This document shows, in pieces, positions 24,950 through 36,082 of a stretch of DNA of 64,000 nucleotides. The first letter of the stretch is position 1. Each line of letters begins with the position of its first letter. The DNA is taken from positions 124,001 to 188,000 of the forward strand of contig CANQNW010000002.1 in assembly GCA_947625305.1 (NCBI GenBank). The letters run 5' to 3'. The notes beneath the pieces are model-generated. The model was not told the origin of the DNA, did no database searches, and saw only the letters and a list, made by a program, of their open reading frames with translations. The stretch is from Candidatus Gastranaerophilales bacterium. Lineage in GTDB: Bacteria; Cyanobacteriota; Vampirovibrionia; Gastranaerophilales; Gastranaerophilaceae. The position numbers and the translations under genes were made by a program.

Positions 24950-25696
24950 TTGTTTAAATTCTTTGATAAGAAAATAAAATCCCATAAAAAAGGTAATACA
25001 ATGTCAGAAACACTTATAGCTCTGACAATAGTCGGGGTTGTTTTTACCATTTCTATGGGGACAATGGTCGCTGATGTTAACAGAAACCAAACAGTTGAAA
25101 GACTAAAAAAAATATATGCATCATTGGCTGATACGTTTAATGCCTCCTCAATAATAAACGGAAATCCTAAATATTGGAATATTTCTGATGGCTTAAGTGA
25201 TTATAATTCTTATGAGTTTTTTACTTCTTATTTAAAACCCTCATTAGTAATTTTACGTGATTGTAAAACCTCCACGCAAGAAGATTGTAATTATATCTTT
25301 AAAGAAATGGACGGCACTGAAAAATCATTAAATGATTCTTGGGCAAGATTCTACCTTAATGACGGCACTTTTGTTGCTCTACAAACAAACGGCAATGATA
25401 AATATAAAGTTATATATTTTTATGTAGATATAAACGGTAAAAAAAGATTAAATGTAGTAGCAAGAGATATTTTTATCTTTGAATATTGGATTGAAAATGC
25501 TGAACACCCTGAATATGAAGGTAAATTATTACCTTTTGGGCATCAATATTCAAGAGAACAATTAATATCTGCCGATGATAAAAATAATTGCAATGTTAAA
25601 ACAAACGGCAACTATTGTTCTGCTTTAATAATGAAGGATAACTGGCAGATACTTCAAGGCTATCCATGGGCACAAGCTAGATATGTAGTTAAATAG
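24950..25696 (+). CDS. Type IV pilin-like protein
   Basis: A 248-aa protein with a prepilin-type N-terminus. A short basic leader (KSHKKG) is followed by NTMSETLIALTIVGVVF, with cleavage expected after Gly and the conserved Glu at position +5, then a hydrophobic helix. The remaining 200 residues are a soluble domain with two Cys pairs (DCKTSTQEDC; CNVKTNGNYC). It is a pseudopilin or minor pilin of a type IV pilus/type II secretion-like system; no other pilus gene is in the window. The start is TTG at 24950 with AGAGGA upstream. It follows dapA by 20 bases and ends 2 bases from the convergent 880-aa gene. Confidence 0.8.
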   Translation: MFKFFDKKIKSHKKGNTMSETLIALTIVGVVFTISMGTMVADVNRNQTVERLKKIYASLADTFNASSIINGNPKYWNISDGLSDYNSYEFFTSYLKPSLVILRDCKTSTQEDCNYIFKEMDGTEKSLNDSWARFYLNDGTFVALQTNGNDKYKVIYFYVDINGKKRLNVVARDIFIFEYWIENAEHPEYEGKLLPFGHQYSREQLISADDKNNCNVKTNGNYCSALIMKDNWQILQGYPWAQARYVVK

Positions 25697-25698
25697 TT

Positions 25699-28341
25699 CT
25701 ATTTTATACTATTAAATACTTTTTCTATTGCTGCAAGTTCATCTTTCATATTATTTGAACATACACCCGCATTAATTAATGCTTCAATTAAATCCGTAAG
25801 TTTATATGTAAATTCACTGGTACCATCGCCTCCGCTCTTATGTGAAATTTCATGAAGCCAAGTTGCAAGCAGTTCATAGAAATCAGCCGTATCTAAATAT
25901 GTTTTGTCCACCCAATGTCCGTTATAGGTTCGGCTACCGCCCGGATTCGAATCAATAATAGCTTCACCAAGTGTATTGGACGACACTTCATTTTTTCTGT
26001 CAAATATATATTTAGGTTTGGATATATCTTCAGCGGATATTAACTCCAGATAACTAAGCTGTGTTTTAATTTGTCTATATATCTCACCATTCTCATTGCC
26101 TATATATGAATTTAAAATATTTGCAATTGCATTAATCTCTTTTAACGAAAGTAATGAAATATTAGCAATTTTTTCATCTAAGTACTCAACTAATTCTTTA
26201 GTAAACTGTTCTAATTTTTTATCATCTAAAAAGATTGTATTATAACCTTTAGCAAAATCTGCATCGTCCATTTCTTTTAAAGCTGACATAACATCATTCT
26301 TTATATATCCGGCAGATGTATTGATTTTATCTTTTATTTTTGGATATATAATTTTTAATTTTCTTTTAAAAGAAGTTTGAACAGATTCTTGAATAACACG
26401 TACTGCCTCATCAAGCAATTTTATTTTCTTTATTTCATTTTCATTCGGCTTTATAGGGGTATGAGAAGATGTTTTCCGCTTAACCTCAACAAGATTATCC
26501 ATCCCTACATTATCCAGTTTCAAAAAGGCAGGGACTATTGTATATCCTTTATTTATTATTGATTTTTTTACTGCAGCATCCATATATTCAAAATCTTTAC
26601 ATATTTTCATTTCACCAAAATCAATAGCTAAATTTCGTTTACTTGCAGCATCGCATAATCCGTTTATAAATGCAGTAATTGCATAATTTTCCTTACTTGT
26701 CGAATCCGTAATACTGCCCCAATGTTGTTTTGTTTTTAATATTGCATCAATAAGTTCTTCATCAGACATATCCATAGAAAAATATTTAGTTAAATTATAT
26801 ATATCATCTTTATTATATAAAAGTCTGTCTCGACCGCCGGTTGAAAATTCTTCACCTGTAACTTCTTTATACTTTTGGGGATCAGGTTTTCTTTTAAAAA
26901 TTAAATTAATACCTTCAACCCCATTAGCCCAGCATTCATCTTTTCCGTATTCAAATCTTTGTGTCAGGTATAAATTACCTTTTTCTTCATTATCCAATAT
27001 TTTAAAAGCAAAATCTTTACTGTTATAATCCAGTTTTTCAAAATCCGCATTATTTGAATGTTCAAAATAGTTTAATGATTCAATCATTGCTTCAACTAAA
27101 TCTTTATCTTTTGTCTCAAATTCAATATAGTTACCTTCTATATTTTCAGATGTTTTATTAAGAGTTCTCATAATTGAATTGTTTTCTTGATTAAAAGACA
27201 ATTTCCAATCAGAAGAAGCAAAAGTTACTTTATCTGATTTTCCTTGTCCCAATAAACTTGCAACTACAATTCTTGAACCTTCGCCAAATCCGCCTGCATT
27301 GTATGGACTTTCCTCAAGTTTATTACCCGACCCGAGTTCAAGTAATGATTTACAATCATAAAACGCATTGCCGGAAATCCTTACTTTATATCCGTTTTCA
27401 CTTTGTTTTACCGAAAAACCCACACCGTCTAATGTATGATTATTGGCATCATAAAAGTTTTGCATTATATCTCTTGCTATTTTATTATTTGACCAGTTTG
27501 TTCTTTTGCCATATGCAATGTTCATTCCTATCGGAATATTCTCGCCTAACTGTCTCAATGATTCTTCAAGATTTTCTATAGAAAATTTCTTCTTTTGATT
27601 TTCATCAACCGAAACTTTTTTTAAGGGTATATTTATATCTTCATTCCTGACAAATTTATCTGATAAATTTTTTACAAAAGCTTCTTCGCTTTTTTCTGTC
27701 AAATCTCTTGAACAATCTTTATAAGGAAACATTTTTTTATAATTTTTTTTTGAAGTTTGTATACTTTGCGGCGGGGTTTCAGAATCATAATTTAATTTAG
27801 TATTGCTTATTAAATTGTTATAATATGACATCCTTTCTTCTTCGTTTTTTCCCGTAGACTTGCCTGCATTATATGTTAAAATACCGCCTGCTAATAATGC
27901 GGATAATTTCACAACTTTATTATTCAGTTTTGAAACTGTTTCTGACTGTTGTGCAATTTTTTGCCCCGCATCTGTTACAGATGTTTTTATATTTCCAAAT
28001 TCATTTTTTAATCCTGTTATTTCCGTTGATAATTTAGATAATTCTTTTGTTATTTGTTTTGAACCCTTACTCGAAATTTTATAACTTATAAGTACTGATA
28101 AAGGAATTGCTGCCAATGGAACTACAATAGGCGCAATTGTTTTTGCTGTTTTTATAAATTTTTCCTTTTTGCTTAAAACAGGAGTAACTTCCGGATATAC
28201 CTTATAAATATTCTCAGAGGTTTCCGCTTTTTGTGTTACAGTTTCTTTATTATTAATTTTCTCCTGATTATTTTTATTTTGAGAATTTGTATTATTTGGA
28301 AGCTGAGGGGTAGTAAACTCTGAAAATACATTACTGCTCAT
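25699..28341 (-). CDS. Large protein with GHKL ATPase-like region and C-terminal HExxH motif
   Basis: An 880-aa protein of unknown function. The N-terminus is low-complexity and Asn-rich, with a hydrophobic segment at about 69-89 and a second at 143-158 around a coiled coil. Residues 285-360 resemble a GHKL (Hsp90/MutL-type) ATP-binding fold. The N-box is D291-IMQ-N295-FY-D298-A. A G2-like glycine loop AGGFGEGSRI is at 349-358, preceded by LLELGSGNK. The G1 aspartate motif is degenerate (SGNAF). Near the end is H830-EIS-H834-KSGGDGTSEF, a zinc-metalloprotease-type HExxH. It has an AGGAGC ribosome site. No family was recognised; both domain calls are by motif only. Confidence 0.7.
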   Translation of the reverse strand: MSSNVFSEFTTPQLPNNTNSQNKNNQEKINNKETVTQKAETSENIYKVYPEVTPVLSKKEKFIKTAKTIAPIVVPLAAIPLSVLISYKISSKGSKQITKELSKLSTEITGLKNEFGNIKTSVTDAGQKIAQQSETVSKLNNKVVKLSALLAGGILTYNAGKSTGKNEEERMSYYNNLISNTKLNYDSETPPQSIQTSKKNYKKMFPYKDCSRDLTEKSEEAFVKNLSDKFVRNEDINIPLKKVSVDENQKKKFSIENLEESLRQLGENIPIGMNIAYGKRTNWSNNKIARDIMQNFYDANNHTLDGVGFSVKQSENGYKVRISGNAFYDCKSLLELGSGNKLEESPYNAGGFGEGSRIVVASLLGQGKSDKVTFASSDWKLSFNQENNSIMRTLNKTSENIEGNYIEFETKDKDLVEAMIESLNYFEHSNNADFEKLDYNSKDFAFKILDNEEKGNLYLTQRFEYGKDECWANGVEGINLIFKRKPDPQKYKEVTGEEFSTGGRDRLLYNKDDIYNLTKYFSMDMSDEELIDAILKTKQHWGSITDSTSKENYAITAFINGLCDAASKRNLAIDFGEMKICKDFEYMDAAVKKSIINKGYTIVPAFLKLDNVGMDNLVEVKRKTSSHTPIKPNENEIKKIKLLDEAVRVIQESVQTSFKRKLKIIYPKIKDKINTSAGYIKNDVMSALKEMDDADFAKGYNTIFLDDKKLEQFTKELVEYLDEKIANISLLSLKEINAIANILNSYIGNENGEIYRQIKTQLSYLELISAEDISKPKYIFDRKNEVSSNTLGEAIIDSNPGGSRTYNGHWVDKTYLDTADFYELLATWLHEISHKSGGDGTSEFTYKLTDLIEALINAGVCSNNMKDELAAIEKVFNSIK

Positions 28342-28376
28342 ATAATTTGCTCCTAATTTTGCCTATATATATATAA

Positions 28377-30262: not shown

Positions 30263-31486
30263 TTACTCCCAAAGATTGTTCATTGGAATGGCAAACATAT
30301 TTTCTCCAAAAGAAACAACATGTTCTCCGGTATATAAAACTATACCGGTAAAAGATTTATTTTTTGCTAAATTTTCTCTAAACCATTTTAAATGTTTAAA
30401 TTGGTCTTTTGTTACCGATGAACCTGATTTTACTTCAATTCCATATATATTGCTTTCATTATCTTGTATTATAAAATCTATCTCTCGTTTTTCTCTATCC
30501 CTGTAATGATAAAGTTCATATTGATTATTTTGTAATTCCACTAATGCAATCAACTGATTATAAACAAAAGTTTCAAAAATTTTTCCTGATTTATCAGTAT
30601 CCAATAATAAATCTTGTGCCTTCCAGTTTAATAAAGCTGCCATTAAACCTGTATCCGTTATAAAATACTTACTTTGTTTATTTACTCTCTCATAATCCGT
30701 TTTAAGCCACGGGTGAAGTTTATCTGTTAAATAAGTATTTTCTAATACTCCCAGGTAGCTATCCAAGGTCTGATTTGCTATTCCCATAGAAGAAGTGATT
30801 TTAGATTTGTCTATAAACTTTGAAGAATATGATGCAATTATAGCAGTAAGTTCCTTTAAGCTATCTTGTCTTTTTATGTTTGCAATATCTTTTAAATCGT
30901 ATTCAATTATTGTATCAATATAATCTTTATACCAAGAAACTCTATCTGATTGTTTTCTATAGCTCAAAGGTTCCGGAAATCCGCCTTTAAAAATGATTTC
31001 AGAAATTTTTTCTTTGTTATATCCGCTATTATTTACAAAATCTTGATTTTTTAACCTGTTTAAAAAATTTGGTTTTTTTCTTAATATTTCACCCGTTGTA
31101 AGAACTCTTAAACGTATCTTTTTTACACGACCTGCAAGCGATTCTTTTATTGTAGGCAAGGTCTGAATATTAACGGAACCCGTTAGCAGATACTGTCCGT
31201 ATCTTGTATTTTCATCAACAGCTTTTTTAATTGCGGTAATGAGTTGTGGAACACGTTGAACTTCATCTATAATCATTGTTCCTTTTGATAATTCAATAAA
31301 GCCTTGTGGGTCATTTTCAGCTGCTTGTAATAATGTTGTATCGTCTAAGGTTCTGTATATTGACTGCTTGTTTATCAGGGTTTTTGAAGTAGTTGTTTTT
31401 CCGCATTGTCTTGAACCCGATAAAATAACTGCCCGTCTTGTTTTTAATGCCAATTTAATATTTGTTTCCTGCCATCTTTTATACAT
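30263..31486 (-). CDS. AAA ATPase with C-terminal DUF4143 domain
   Basis: A 407-aa predicted ATPase of the AAA_14/DUF4143 group, common in bacteria and of unknown function. Walker A is GSRQCGKT (residues 24-31) and Walker B is TMIIDEVQRVP (about 76-86), followed by the sensor-like LLTGSVN. The C-terminal domain includes the PD-(D/E)xK-like REIDFIIQ, then IYGIEVKSG. The ATG at 31486 is preferred over an in-frame upstream ATG at 31531 because it follows GGGAGGG. It is a lone minus-strand gene between the two copies of a duplicated EamA gene end, and its promoter is covered by four spaced repeats. Confidence 0.88.
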   Translation of the reverse strand: MYKRWQETNIKLALKTRRAVILSGSRQCGKTTTSKTLINKQSIYRTLDDTTLLQAAENDPQGFIELSKGTMIIDEVQRVPQLITAIKKAVDENTRYGQYLLTGSVNIQTLPTIKESLAGRVKKIRLRVLTTGEILRKKPNFLNRLKNQDFVNNSGYNKEKISEIIFKGGFPEPLSYRKQSDRVSWYKDYIDTIIEYDLKDIANIKRQDSLKELTAIIASYSSKFIDKSKITSSMGIANQTLDSYLGVLENTYLTDKLHPWLKTDYERVNKQSKYFITDTGLMAALLNWKAQDLLLDTDKSGKIFETFVYNQLIALVELQNNQYELYHYRDREKREIDFIIQDNESNIYGIEVKSGSSVTKDQFKHLKWFRENLAKNKSFTGIVLYTGEHVVSFGENMFAIPMNNLWE

Positions 31487-31503
31487 TAATACCCTCCCTC
31501 GTG

Positions 31504-31595
31504 CGCAAAAATTAAAATTAAAAATCCGCAAAAATTAAAGTTTACATCTCGCAATTATTGTAATACAAAACCCGCAAAAATGCAACTTTATTCCT
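31504..31595 (-). repeat. Four 23-bp-spaced iteron-like repeats
   Basis: CGCAAAAATT-type units start at 31504, 31527, 31550 and 31573, exactly 23 bp apart. The first two share the longer core CGCAAAAATTAAA; the third is CGCAATTATT and the fourth CGCAAAAATG. On the gene strand each reads TTTTTGCG or similar. They lie 18-110 bases upstream of the AAA/DUF4143 start and overlap its predicted promoter, so they look like operator or protein-binding iterons. Confidence 0.8.
31557..31585 (-). promoter_or_regulatory. Sigma-70-type promoter for the AAA/DUF4143 gene
   Basis: On the minus strand TTGCAT (31585-31580), a 17-bp spacer and TACAAT (31562-31557). It lies within the array of 23-bp-spaced repeats, with repeat cores inside the spacer and directly after the -10. 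Confidence 0.5.
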
Positions 31596-33286: not shown

Positions 33287-36082
33287 TTACTTATTTCTAA
33301 AATAATCCAGATAATTTATTGAACCTTTAGTGTTATTTGAATTCAATAGTGCCGTTTTGCTCTCAGATGCCGTTGAATTTACTGTTTTATCCTTTGGCAG
33401 CCGGTCTTTTAACGGTTTTTTACCTGTAAGTAATCTCATAAATTTAAAATATTTTCCTGCCAGCCCTTTTCTGTTTTCATTTTTTTCATCTATTTCCTGA
33501 AGCTGTTCGTATGTTTTCCTTCTTACAGGCATACCGATTGATTTTCTGGTTATTATTTCCGTTGTTAATGTATTAGGTGCTACAACCATTGCCATACCGA
33601 GCAGTGAACTGTTATAAAGTGATTTAAATGTTGAATTGAAGAGGTTTATAAACATTGATTGATAGAATAATGCACTTAATCTTTGTATTATTCTTTCATT
33701 TGCTTTTTCTTTTGCCTGATCTTTGTTTTCGCCGTTCGATTTTATCATTACCATATTGTAATTATCGGCAACTAAAAATGCTGATGTTACAAGAGATGAT
33801 GCAACTTTAGAGAGCATCGCTATATCTGTATTTTTATTGCTGGATTGCGATACTTCGTTAAATGATTTTTCCACTGCATCTGTTATATATCTTTTTAATT
33901 TTAATTTTGCTTCATTTATTTTTTCGGGATTATTAGGATTTCCATTAATTACTTTCTGCAGTTTTCTTGTTTTATCCTGAAATTTTTCCATTGCACCTGC
34001 AAAAATATCTTGATTTATCTTACTATGTTTTGCCGAAACCTCCCCAAATAATTCTTTGGAAACTTTATCAATAGTTTTTTCAAATCCGTTCAATTTATTA
34101 TTTTTTGCCATTTCTTTTTCTACAATTTTATTTATAGGAAAGGTTATTAGGGATTTTACAATATTAAACGGTTTCTTTAAAATTCCAAATATGAATTTGA
34201 ACGGTTCTATTACAAAATCTACAAACGGTTTAATTTTTGTATCTATTTTAACAGGTACTTCTTTTGCATTATTTTTTATACCTTCCGATATCTTTTCTGC
34301 TATTTGTTTTAATTTTTCTTCAGAAGTATCTAATTGATTTTTAAGTAATAACTCTGTAATTTTGTTTGTTAATTTAGAATAATTTTTTTCTTCAATTGCC
34401 GAAATATTTTGTTTTACTGCTGTTTTAACAAGTTTATTTATTAAAGACTGATTATTTTCATTAATATCTATCCCTAACTTAAGCATATCCGATTTTAATG
34501 AGTTTATAATTTCCGGGATTTTTGCCTCAGAAAATGAATCTTTGTATATTTTTATAATTCCATCAGCAGTAGTTTTTGCATATTTTTCTTTTATTAATTC
34601 ATGTCCTTCTACAATTTCACTAACTCCAACATCTTTAAGAGTATTAATAACCTCTTTATATTTATTTTCCGACATTTCAAAATCTTTAAATGCTAATTTA
34701 TTGTATATATTATTTTTTAGGTAATCCCAGCCGTTTTTTACTCCTTTTACTAATTTTGAATTTTTTGTAAGCGAACTGTTTTTAAGAAAACTAAATACAA
34801 ACCCTGCTCCGATTAATACTGCAATTGCTTTTTTTAGTGTCTGCATATTTATTAATGCTTTTTTTGTTTCTTTTTTATTATTGGGTTTTTCGGTATTGGT
34901 ATCTGTACTATTTTGAGGAATTTTATTTGAAAATTCTAAAAACTCACTAAATAAAGATTTATCTTCTGTTTTTGGCTTTGTAATATTACTTGCGAGGGTT
35001 TCCGGTTTTTCTGCCGGTTGCGCAGGTAATTTAGTATTTTTATGTTTTTTATTATACTTCTTTGCCTGTTCCTTCGACAAAAACAATACAGGTTTTCCTA
35101 AACTTAACCTTGAGATTATCTCCGTTACCAAAACTATTAAAGCACCCATAACGGGAACAAATGCGGGATTGGTGTTAACTTTTTTTGTAAATGCTCCAAA
35201 TATTATCAATTGTGCATATGCCGTAAGTAATACTCTTGATATCTCTTGTTTCTGCCTTTGTTTAGCCTCATGAGTTGACATTTCTTTAGTATCACCGCAC
35301 AAGACAGATAAATTATATGCATCATTTGCTAAAAATAAGACGGGAATTAGTCCTGAAACTATTCTGTTTAACGGTCTTTCAAATGCCGTATTAAAATTAC
35401 CCGTATTTTTATCAAAAAATTTATTGCTGATTTTATACAAATTAGATTTTATATATTCTGAAGTTTCTTTAATAAGTTTTTGGCTTTCTGGCGATTTATC
35501 ACTGCCATTCAGTATACTTATTAATTTTTTATAATCGATATTTTTTTCTTTTGCAAAGTCCTTAACAACCTGCTGAGTTCTATCATACATTCCTTTTATA
35601 ATACTTGTCTTTTGATCAAGTTCGTTTATTTTTCTCGGAATTCTTAATAAAGGTTTTCTGTATAATTTATCTGCATTTTTTTGTATTATCGGGACTTTTT
35701 TAAATAAAGATATCTTTTTTAATACCCAGCTTGCAATGTCAAGAGGCAGTGTAATAAACGGGAAAAGGACATTCTCAAGTAACGATGCCCCCGGGTTTTT
35801 AGATTTAATTGATGTAATACCTTTTTCTAAATCAAATCTTGCAGTAGATTTAATTATATTTTCATTCCCCAGTTTAGCAATTTTTTTGCCAATTCTTGGC
35901 GCAATATCCCCGTAATGCTGAGAAAATATATTCATTATACTTTCATCGGCTTTTGAAATTATTGTATCAGGAACTCCTTTAAAAGTCGGATTTGAGTGAG
36001 GATGAGTGTTCAAAGAATTTTTAAATTCCTGTTTCTTCCTTTTTTCAGATATATTTACCAGCCTGCGGGCTGAAATTTTCAT
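33287..36082 (-). CDS. Large membrane protein with internal duplication
   Basis: A 931-aa protein of unknown function. It has several hydrophobic segments (about 103-122, 243-257, 283-296, 305-322, 417-435, 640-660 and 755-830) separated by Lys-rich soluble parts. Two regions are clearly related: about 242-332 (LANDAYNLSVL, then TEIISRLSLGKPV) and 762-853 (VADNYNMVMI, then TEIITRKSIGMPV), so the protein was built by duplication of a membrane module. The N-terminus has MKISAR and, at 31-36, NPTFKG. It has an AAGGA site before the ATG. Two tRNA genes follow on the same strand. Confidence 0.75.
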   Translation of the reverse strand: MKISARRLVNISEKRKKQEFKNSLNTHPHSNPTFKGVPDTIISKADESIMNIFSQHYGDIAPRIGKKIAKLGNENIIKSTARFDLEKGITSIKSKNPGASLLENVLFPFITLPLDIASWVLKKISLFKKVPIIQKNADKLYRKPLLRIPRKINELDQKTSIIKGMYDRTQQVVKDFAKEKNIDYKKLISILNGSDKSPESQKLIKETSEYIKSNLYKISNKFFDKNTGNFNTAFERPLNRIVSGLIPVLFLANDAYNLSVLCGDTKEMSTHEAKQRQKQEISRVLLTAYAQLIIFGAFTKKVNTNPAFVPVMGALIVLVTEIISRLSLGKPVLFLSKEQAKKYNKKHKNTKLPAQPAEKPETLASNITKPKTEDKSLFSEFLEFSNKIPQNSTDTNTEKPNNKKETKKALINMQTLKKAIAVLIGAGFVFSFLKNSSLTKNSKLVKGVKNGWDYLKNNIYNKLAFKDFEMSENKYKEVINTLKDVGVSEIVEGHELIKEKYAKTTADGIIKIYKDSFSEAKIPEIINSLKSDMLKLGIDINENNQSLINKLVKTAVKQNISAIEEKNYSKLTNKITELLLKNQLDTSEEKLKQIAEKISEGIKNNAKEVPVKIDTKIKPFVDFVIEPFKFIFGILKKPFNIVKSLITFPINKIVEKEMAKNNKLNGFEKTIDKVSKELFGEVSAKHSKINQDIFAGAMEKFQDKTRKLQKVINGNPNNPEKINEAKLKLKRYITDAVEKSFNEVSQSSNKNTDIAMLSKVASSLVTSAFLVADNYNMVMIKSNGENKDQAKEKANERIIQRLSALFYQSMFINLFNSTFKSLYNSSLLGMAMVVAPNTLTTEIITRKSIGMPVRRKTYEQLQEIDEKNENRKGLAGKYFKFMRLLTGKKPLKDRLPKDKTVNSTASESKTALLNSNNTKGSINYLDYFRNK

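Follow-up and report, generated by a model that had tools for sequence, protein, structure and literature searches.

Hsp90, MutL, GyrB and MORC are GHKL ATPases, and the protein described here, termed GHKL-zincin, shares with them a Bergerat fold, an N-box Asn, a G2 loop and a lid Lys. It differs in lacking the G1 Asp, in having Asp in place of the catalytic Glu and in carrying a protease fused behind the GHKL domain. The uncharacterized phage GHKL proteins of phrog_6077 (Pseudomonas phage Ab19 gp34 and the Vibrio phage VPMS1 "HATPase") present the same order of motifs, W...R(E/D)xxQN, GxxGEGxK and RDR, and the G1 Asp is likewise missing; these proteins are, however, ~350–370 aa in length, retain the canonical Glu in the N-box and have no zincin domain. 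T4 RIIA-type proteins have an N-terminal GHKL domain and a variable C-terminal part (PMC7824862), an arrangement that GHKL-zincin resembles and to which it shows fold matches, but they carry no zinc protease and the sequence profile matched only one member (E 0.006 over 20 residues). On the protease side, the Wss1/SPRTN (WLM/SprT-like) DNA-protein-crosslink proteases provide the best structural match and weak WLM profile matches. By contrast with these enzymes, the third ligand of GHKL-zincin is apparently an Asp five residues past the second His, not a His, and the protease is joined to a GHKL domain with no DNA-binding region recognized. FtsH is a membrane-anchored chain in which a nucleotide-binding domain precedes an HExxH zinc protease, but it is an AAA+ hexameric motor, whereas GHKL-zincin has a GHKL fold; no AAA match was obtained for the protein in Pfam or NCBIfam. 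Energy- or ligand-controlled proteases are not known to us to use switches other than AAA+ or STAND.

The GHKL and zincin domains are each of a known kind, and it is probably their union in one chain that is new. This combination was absent from Pfam, NCBIfam, PHROGs and PADLOC, the open literature searched held no relevant paper on the union of GHKL with a zincin or metallopeptidase, and neither the protein nor its profile drew an informative match from Pfam, NCBIfam, PADLOC or PDB sequences. The statement in the original prediction that no described family joins a GHKL ATPase to a zinc protease thus held within the profile libraries and open literature searched.

The gene was identified in a window of 64,000 nucleotides, this being the whole stretch of DNA analyzed, from the genome (1.97 Mb in 26 contigs) of a gut bacterium of the Gastranaerophilales, relatives of the cyanobacteria. 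Its features are collected in Table 1. The motifs first noted (N-box R290-N295-D298, GGFGEG at residues 350–355 and H830-E-I-S-H834) were all found at the positions given in the original prediction. The claim of two N-terminal hydrophobic segments held only in part: hydropathy analysis revealed one clear transmembrane (TM) stretch, with a mean Kyte-Doolittle value of 2.12, and a two-TM topology was rejected because the second patch, at residues ~145–160, lay below the hydropathy threshold.

Table 1. Features of the GHKL-zincin gene and its product (window coordinates)
Feature	Position	Strand	Basis or remark
Whole gene, GHKL-zincin protein of 880 aa	25699..28341 (stop included)	-	ATG start; homologues
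AGGAG, ribosome-binding-like (plausible Shine-Dalgarno) site	28350..28354	-	8 nt upstream of ATG; sequence
Residues 1-170: lysine-rich tail, TM helix, coiled-coil-like linker	27832..28341	-	Common with GT5-type glycosyltransferase
TM helix, residues 68-86	28084..28140	-	Hydropathy; one TM in most single-module relatives
Predicted Bergerat/GHKL domain, residues ~262-432	27046..27558	-	AF2 model; VIA Z 11.2 to Hsp90
N-box RDIMQNFYDA, residues 290-299	27445..27474	-	Asp291 at GHKL catalytic Glu position; module conservation
G1-like ISGNA, residues 322-326	27364..27378	-	Ile322 at usual Asp position
G2 loop GGFGEGSR, residues 350-357	27271..27294	-	Module conservation
RDR motif, residues 504-506	26824..26832	-	Also in phage relatives
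Helical insertion, residues ~660-767	26041..26364	-	~850-880-aa forms only
Predicted zincin protease domain, residues 617-880, helical insertion inside	25702..26493	-	AF2 model; VIA match Wss1
HEISHKSGGD, residues 830-839	25825..25854	-	Zinc-binding/catalytic motif; Asp839 candidate third ligand

Two AF2 models were used, each built on an alignment of only six sequences: one of residues 255–880 (m91d83a6bb234; pLDDT 77.6, pTM 0.53) and one of residues 617–880 (m54b3403f89e7; pLDDT 84, pTM 0.80). Alignment of the larger model with VIA-align gave matches to Hsp90 N-domains with a Z score of 11.2 (158 aligned residues, rmsd 3.2 Å), and its Foldseek matches included Hsp90, TRAP1, GyrB, MutL and MORC. 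In a viral structure library, RIIA proteins accounted for many of the named matches. Given that a Bergerat fold (Hsp90, GyrB, MutL, MORC) was found for the 250–480 region, the fold check did not refute the GHKL assignment. The protein satisfies the GHKL criteria of a Bergerat α/β sandwich (AF2, VIA and Foldseek), an N-box Asn and a G2 GxxGxG; it fails those of a catalytic N-box Glu and a G1 DxGxG motif. The absence of the catalytic Glu weakens the label "ATPase" but not the assignment of the fold.

Conservation was assessed over 56 unique homologous modules, with residues counted only where the relevant column was present. W283, R290, D291, Q294 and N295 were found in 54/54 modules and G350, G353, E354 and G355 in 55/55, and the lid Lys341 was present in 52 of the 56. 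HExxH was intact in 48/56 modules, and D839 and F844 were each present in every one of these (48/48). Even in modules with identities as low as 22–37%, N295, the G2 loop, HExxH and D839 stayed conserved. The conserved N-box, G2 loop and HEISH are therefore not chance occurrences, and the near-invariance of N295, the G2 loop and H830/E831/H834 leaves the proposed motifs unrefuted. Column 322, which we take to be that of the Hsp90 G1 Asp on the basis of a gap-free alignment back from the conserved Gly337, is occupied by Ile or Val in all 55 modules, and the first Gly of the G1 motif is retained in 54/56. At the position of the N-box catalytic Glu, Asp291 was observed throughout (54/54); all zincin-fused sequences have this substitution, those of G087 and of the Akkermansia-labelled MAGs among them. 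Thus, the lost G1 Asp and the Asp-for-Glu N-box, which had been noted in the single protein, held as family-wide traits and are not the result of decay.

With the G1 Asp and the catalytic Glu both missing, ATP binding cannot be taken for granted, and binding and hydrolysis are inferred only. One alternative is that the GHKL part binds no nucleotide and serves solely as a structural dimerization scaffold for the protease, for which the loss of the G1 Asp (55/55) and the replacement of the catalytic Glu by Asp (54/54) may be cited. Against this, N295, Lys341 and the G2 loop vary little or not at all, tandem copies with a dead protease included (see below), and a mere scaffold would not need them; the alternative is therefore considered unlikely. 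In the reading preferred here, the GHKL domain would be a slow or non-hydrolyzing sensor, perhaps not for plain ATP, rather than an ATP-burning unfoldase, since across the family Asp replaces the hydrolytic Glu, and Ile or Val the adenine-contacting Asp. Nucleotide binding without hydrolysis, raised as an option in the original prediction, is favored in this inferred form. That the pocket is kept without two supposedly essential acidic residues makes the question of what such GHKL domains bind a testable one.

For residues 617–880, the best VIA match was Wss1 (5xbv; Z 8.7, 108 aligned residues, 3.2 Å), followed by selecase, Grifola Lys-endopeptidase, jannalysin, Acel_2062, AsaP1 and a DNA-protein-crosslink protease; the remainder of the top 14 rows were mostly other zincins. 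Families missing from the VIA-align listing are not thereby excluded. Foldseek with the protease domain alone gave no significant match, the best (E 0.64) being a selecase, which is a zincin. In the smaller model, H830/E831/H834 lie on a helix (model residues 205–220), and HExxH is followed by G-x-D, with the Asp present in all intact copies. Given its location on a helix of the predicted zincin fold and its conservation together with the downstream Asp, the HExxH motif likewise survived the check made on it. Asp839 may serve as the third zinc ligand, although this is inferred from its invariance without any zinc geometry; the His that fills this role in WLM/SprT-like proteins is missing, Asp occupying that conserved position. 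The WLM profile gave weak matches in 2 of 22 members (best E 0.014, below the curated cut-off). Matches from the WLM family search were restricted to the HExxH motif and were discarded. Although predicted by model, both domain assignments are very probably right, and there is little doubt that fold and fusion are well supported.

The GHKL half has relatives in phage. Using E values up to 1, 19/22 module sequences matched phrog_6077 (best E 3e-12), and these matches were confined to the GHKL part. The window protein itself gave no phrog_6077 match, but the family profile did: hhalign comparison of the module profile with phrog_6077 gave a value of 97% (E 5e-11) over 298 columns (module columns 28–381). 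This homology, which is shown, spans the whole GHKL domain plus the RDR region. The motifs W...RELLQN..D, GEGYK and LERDRQTV occur in the phage proteins, in which the G1 Asp is missing and no zincin follows. The window protein does not conform to the domain content of phrog_6077 (GHKL and RDR with nothing after), since it adds a TM segment and the zincin. Given the phage-type kinship of the GHKL half and the lack of a zincin in the phage proteins, the protease appears to have been added to a GHKL protein of the phage type. No match was obtained when phages and plasmids were searched by tblastn with the window protein, and the module of a giant relative gave no phage match; a distant relative (L034) recovered phage GHKL proteins and no plasmid match. 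Scans of viral contigs for relatives returned a single contig. GHKL-zincin ties an uncharacterized phage GHKL family to a patchy gene of gut Gastranaerophilales.

Homologues were present in 50/98 near genomes when matches to the N-terminal region alone were counted, and the module profile detected the GHKL-zincin module in 35/292 genomes of the phylum. Further homologues were found in two named Gastranaerophilales MAGs and two Akkermansia-labelled MAGs; genome searches centered on Verrucomicrobiota and Hydrogenedentes yielded no additional copies. In one Akkermansia-labelled MAG, an AbiEii gene (type IV toxin-antitoxin) stands just before the start of the GHKL-zincin ORF (L034:2801-5733). In a Hydrogenedentes MAG, only a truncated GHKL N-terminal stub ending in a stop is present (L036:2524-2682), beside a large ORF that is in part P-loop helicase-like.

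Three architectures were distinguished. Architecture A (~850–880 aa) comprises TM, linker, GHKL, helical insertion and zincin, and its members (the window protein, G012, G303, L032 and L033) form a clade with 100/100 support. Architecture B (~700–760 aa) comprises TM, GHKL and zincin. Architecture C (roughly 1200 to 4366 aa) ends in two tandem modules, of which the first has an intact HExxH and the second lacks HExxH yet keeps all GHKL residues. Retention of the second GHKL domain beside a dead protease would fit GHKL domains working in pairs. Giant tandem-module proteins are encoded at L043:2357-12277, L045:3269-10486 and L038:3-12137; two have an EF-hand-like N terminus, and a further HExxH site occurs in those of L043 and L038. 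A tyrosine-integrase gene precedes two of the giants, and one giant is located on an IMG/VR contig in the vicinity of a phage tail-sheath gene.

The site between dapA-DUF6613 and kdsA is empty in 17 congeners, in which DUF6613 and kdsA are adjacent with ≤20 bp between frames. In the window, a type A gene lies between DUF6613 and kdsA on the minus strand, and in genome G016 a type B gene lies there on the plus strand. Repeated gain at this one locus is among the results that are shown, and the two different versions represent two independent gains. GHKL-zincin genes have thus inserted more than once at the DUF6613/kdsA junction. The DUF6613 protein of the window (24950-25696, plus strand) is type-IV-pilin-like, and its gene is convergent with the target gene across a 2-bp gap. 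Elsewhere, GHKL-zincin genes neighbor genes such as der, metG, a bioD-like gene, rpoB and pdxJ. No constant gene partner was found among the inspected neighborhoods, the Gastranaerophilales copies standing alone, and none of 14 neighborhoods inspected was a defense island. GHKL-zincin is therefore likely a standalone, laterally moving accessory gene of patchy distribution.

These data bear on two alternatives. The first is a membrane-anchored quality-control or housekeeping protease, FtsH- or HtpX-like, in which GHKL replaces the AAA+ ring. The membrane anchor, the zinc-protease fold and the housekeeping neighbors (der, metG, bioD-like, kdsA and rpoB) are in its favor; against it, the module occurs in only 35/292 genomes and most congeners lack an insertion at the locus, whereas housekeeping proteases are less dispensable. 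GHKL domains, moreover, form no threading rings. This alternative is regarded as unlikely. The second, which remains possible, is a phage-defense effector of the abortive-infection type, in which GHKL would sense infection and the protease cleave a host or phage protein. It is supported by the kinship of the GHKL half with phage GHKL proteins, structural similarity to RIIA exclusion proteins, the patchy distribution with repeated gain, the AbiEii gene just before the Akkermansia-labelled copy and the integrase gene before two giants. Against it, 0/14 inspected neighborhoods were defense islands, the Gastranaerophilales copies are alone, and PADLOC-DB gave no match for the window protein and only stray single-member matches. 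With no constant partner, defense island or convincing PADLOC match, any role in phage defense is only weakly supported.

Residues 1–170 recur in one protein of ~900 aa that nearly all genomes of the genus encode. In the genome of the window, this protein has starch-synthase-type GT5 and GT1 glycosyltransferase domains. A ~900-aa GT5 starch-synthase-like protein with the target's N-terminal TM/coiled-coil module is also encoded at L037:2270-4975 (minus strand; G000:C11). Enzymes of the GT5 class use cytosolic sugar nucleotides. Because an unrelated GT5 enzyme has the same membrane segment, a cytosolic location rather than export is inferred, and the large C-terminal part of GHKL-zincin would face the cytosol; this orientation is not shown. 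An N-terminal NxxFxGK motif putatively common to Gastranaerophilales proteins did not convince by count (9/236 ORFs; 6 versus 2 in the internal control). A secreted or injected effector or toxin, with the N-terminal part as export signal, might be suggested by the low-complexity N terminus, the giant multidomain relatives with EF-hand-like repeats and the giant near a phage tail-sheath gene. However, the TM segment common with the GT5 glycosyltransferase points to an anchored cytosolic enzyme, no secretion or immunity gene was recognized nearby, and no toxin-family match was found in Pfam, NCBIfam or PADLOC. This explanation is thus very unlikely, and the "toxin/effector-like" suggestion of the original prediction has no specific support.

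The preferred reading, for and against which the evidence is evenly poised, is that of a protease tethered to the cytosolic face of the membrane and gated when a ligand drives dimerization of the GHKL domains, with gating, ligand and substrate inferred. Here, the chain would cross the membrane once and carry a GHKL domain that binds a ligand, with the zincin metalloprotease behind it. By analogy with other GHKL proteins, the lid would shut on binding of a nucleotide or similar ligand and two GHKL domains would come together, and this pairing would form or expose the protease site. As a guess, its likeliest use would be to cut, only during stress or phage attack, a target in the cytosol or near the membrane. 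Ligand, dimerization, proteolysis, target and orientation are all inferred in the absence of biochemistry, and the "ATP-gated protease" first proposed likewise remains an inference. A bolder reading, toward which the balance does not quite tip, is that these proteins form a class of regulated proteases not described before: on binding of a nucleotide-like ligand, GHKL closure and pairing would switch on a membrane-tethered zincin without need of fast hydrolysis. If true, protease control by a GHKL switch would be a new principle.

Two further ORFs of the window lie on the minus strand. At 30263-31531, near the target gene, an AAA_14/DUF4143 ATPase is encoded, another accessory-type gene. The ORF at 33287-36082 encodes 931 aa without a Pfam match and has 31% identity over 260 aa to a neighbor of the L033 homologue.
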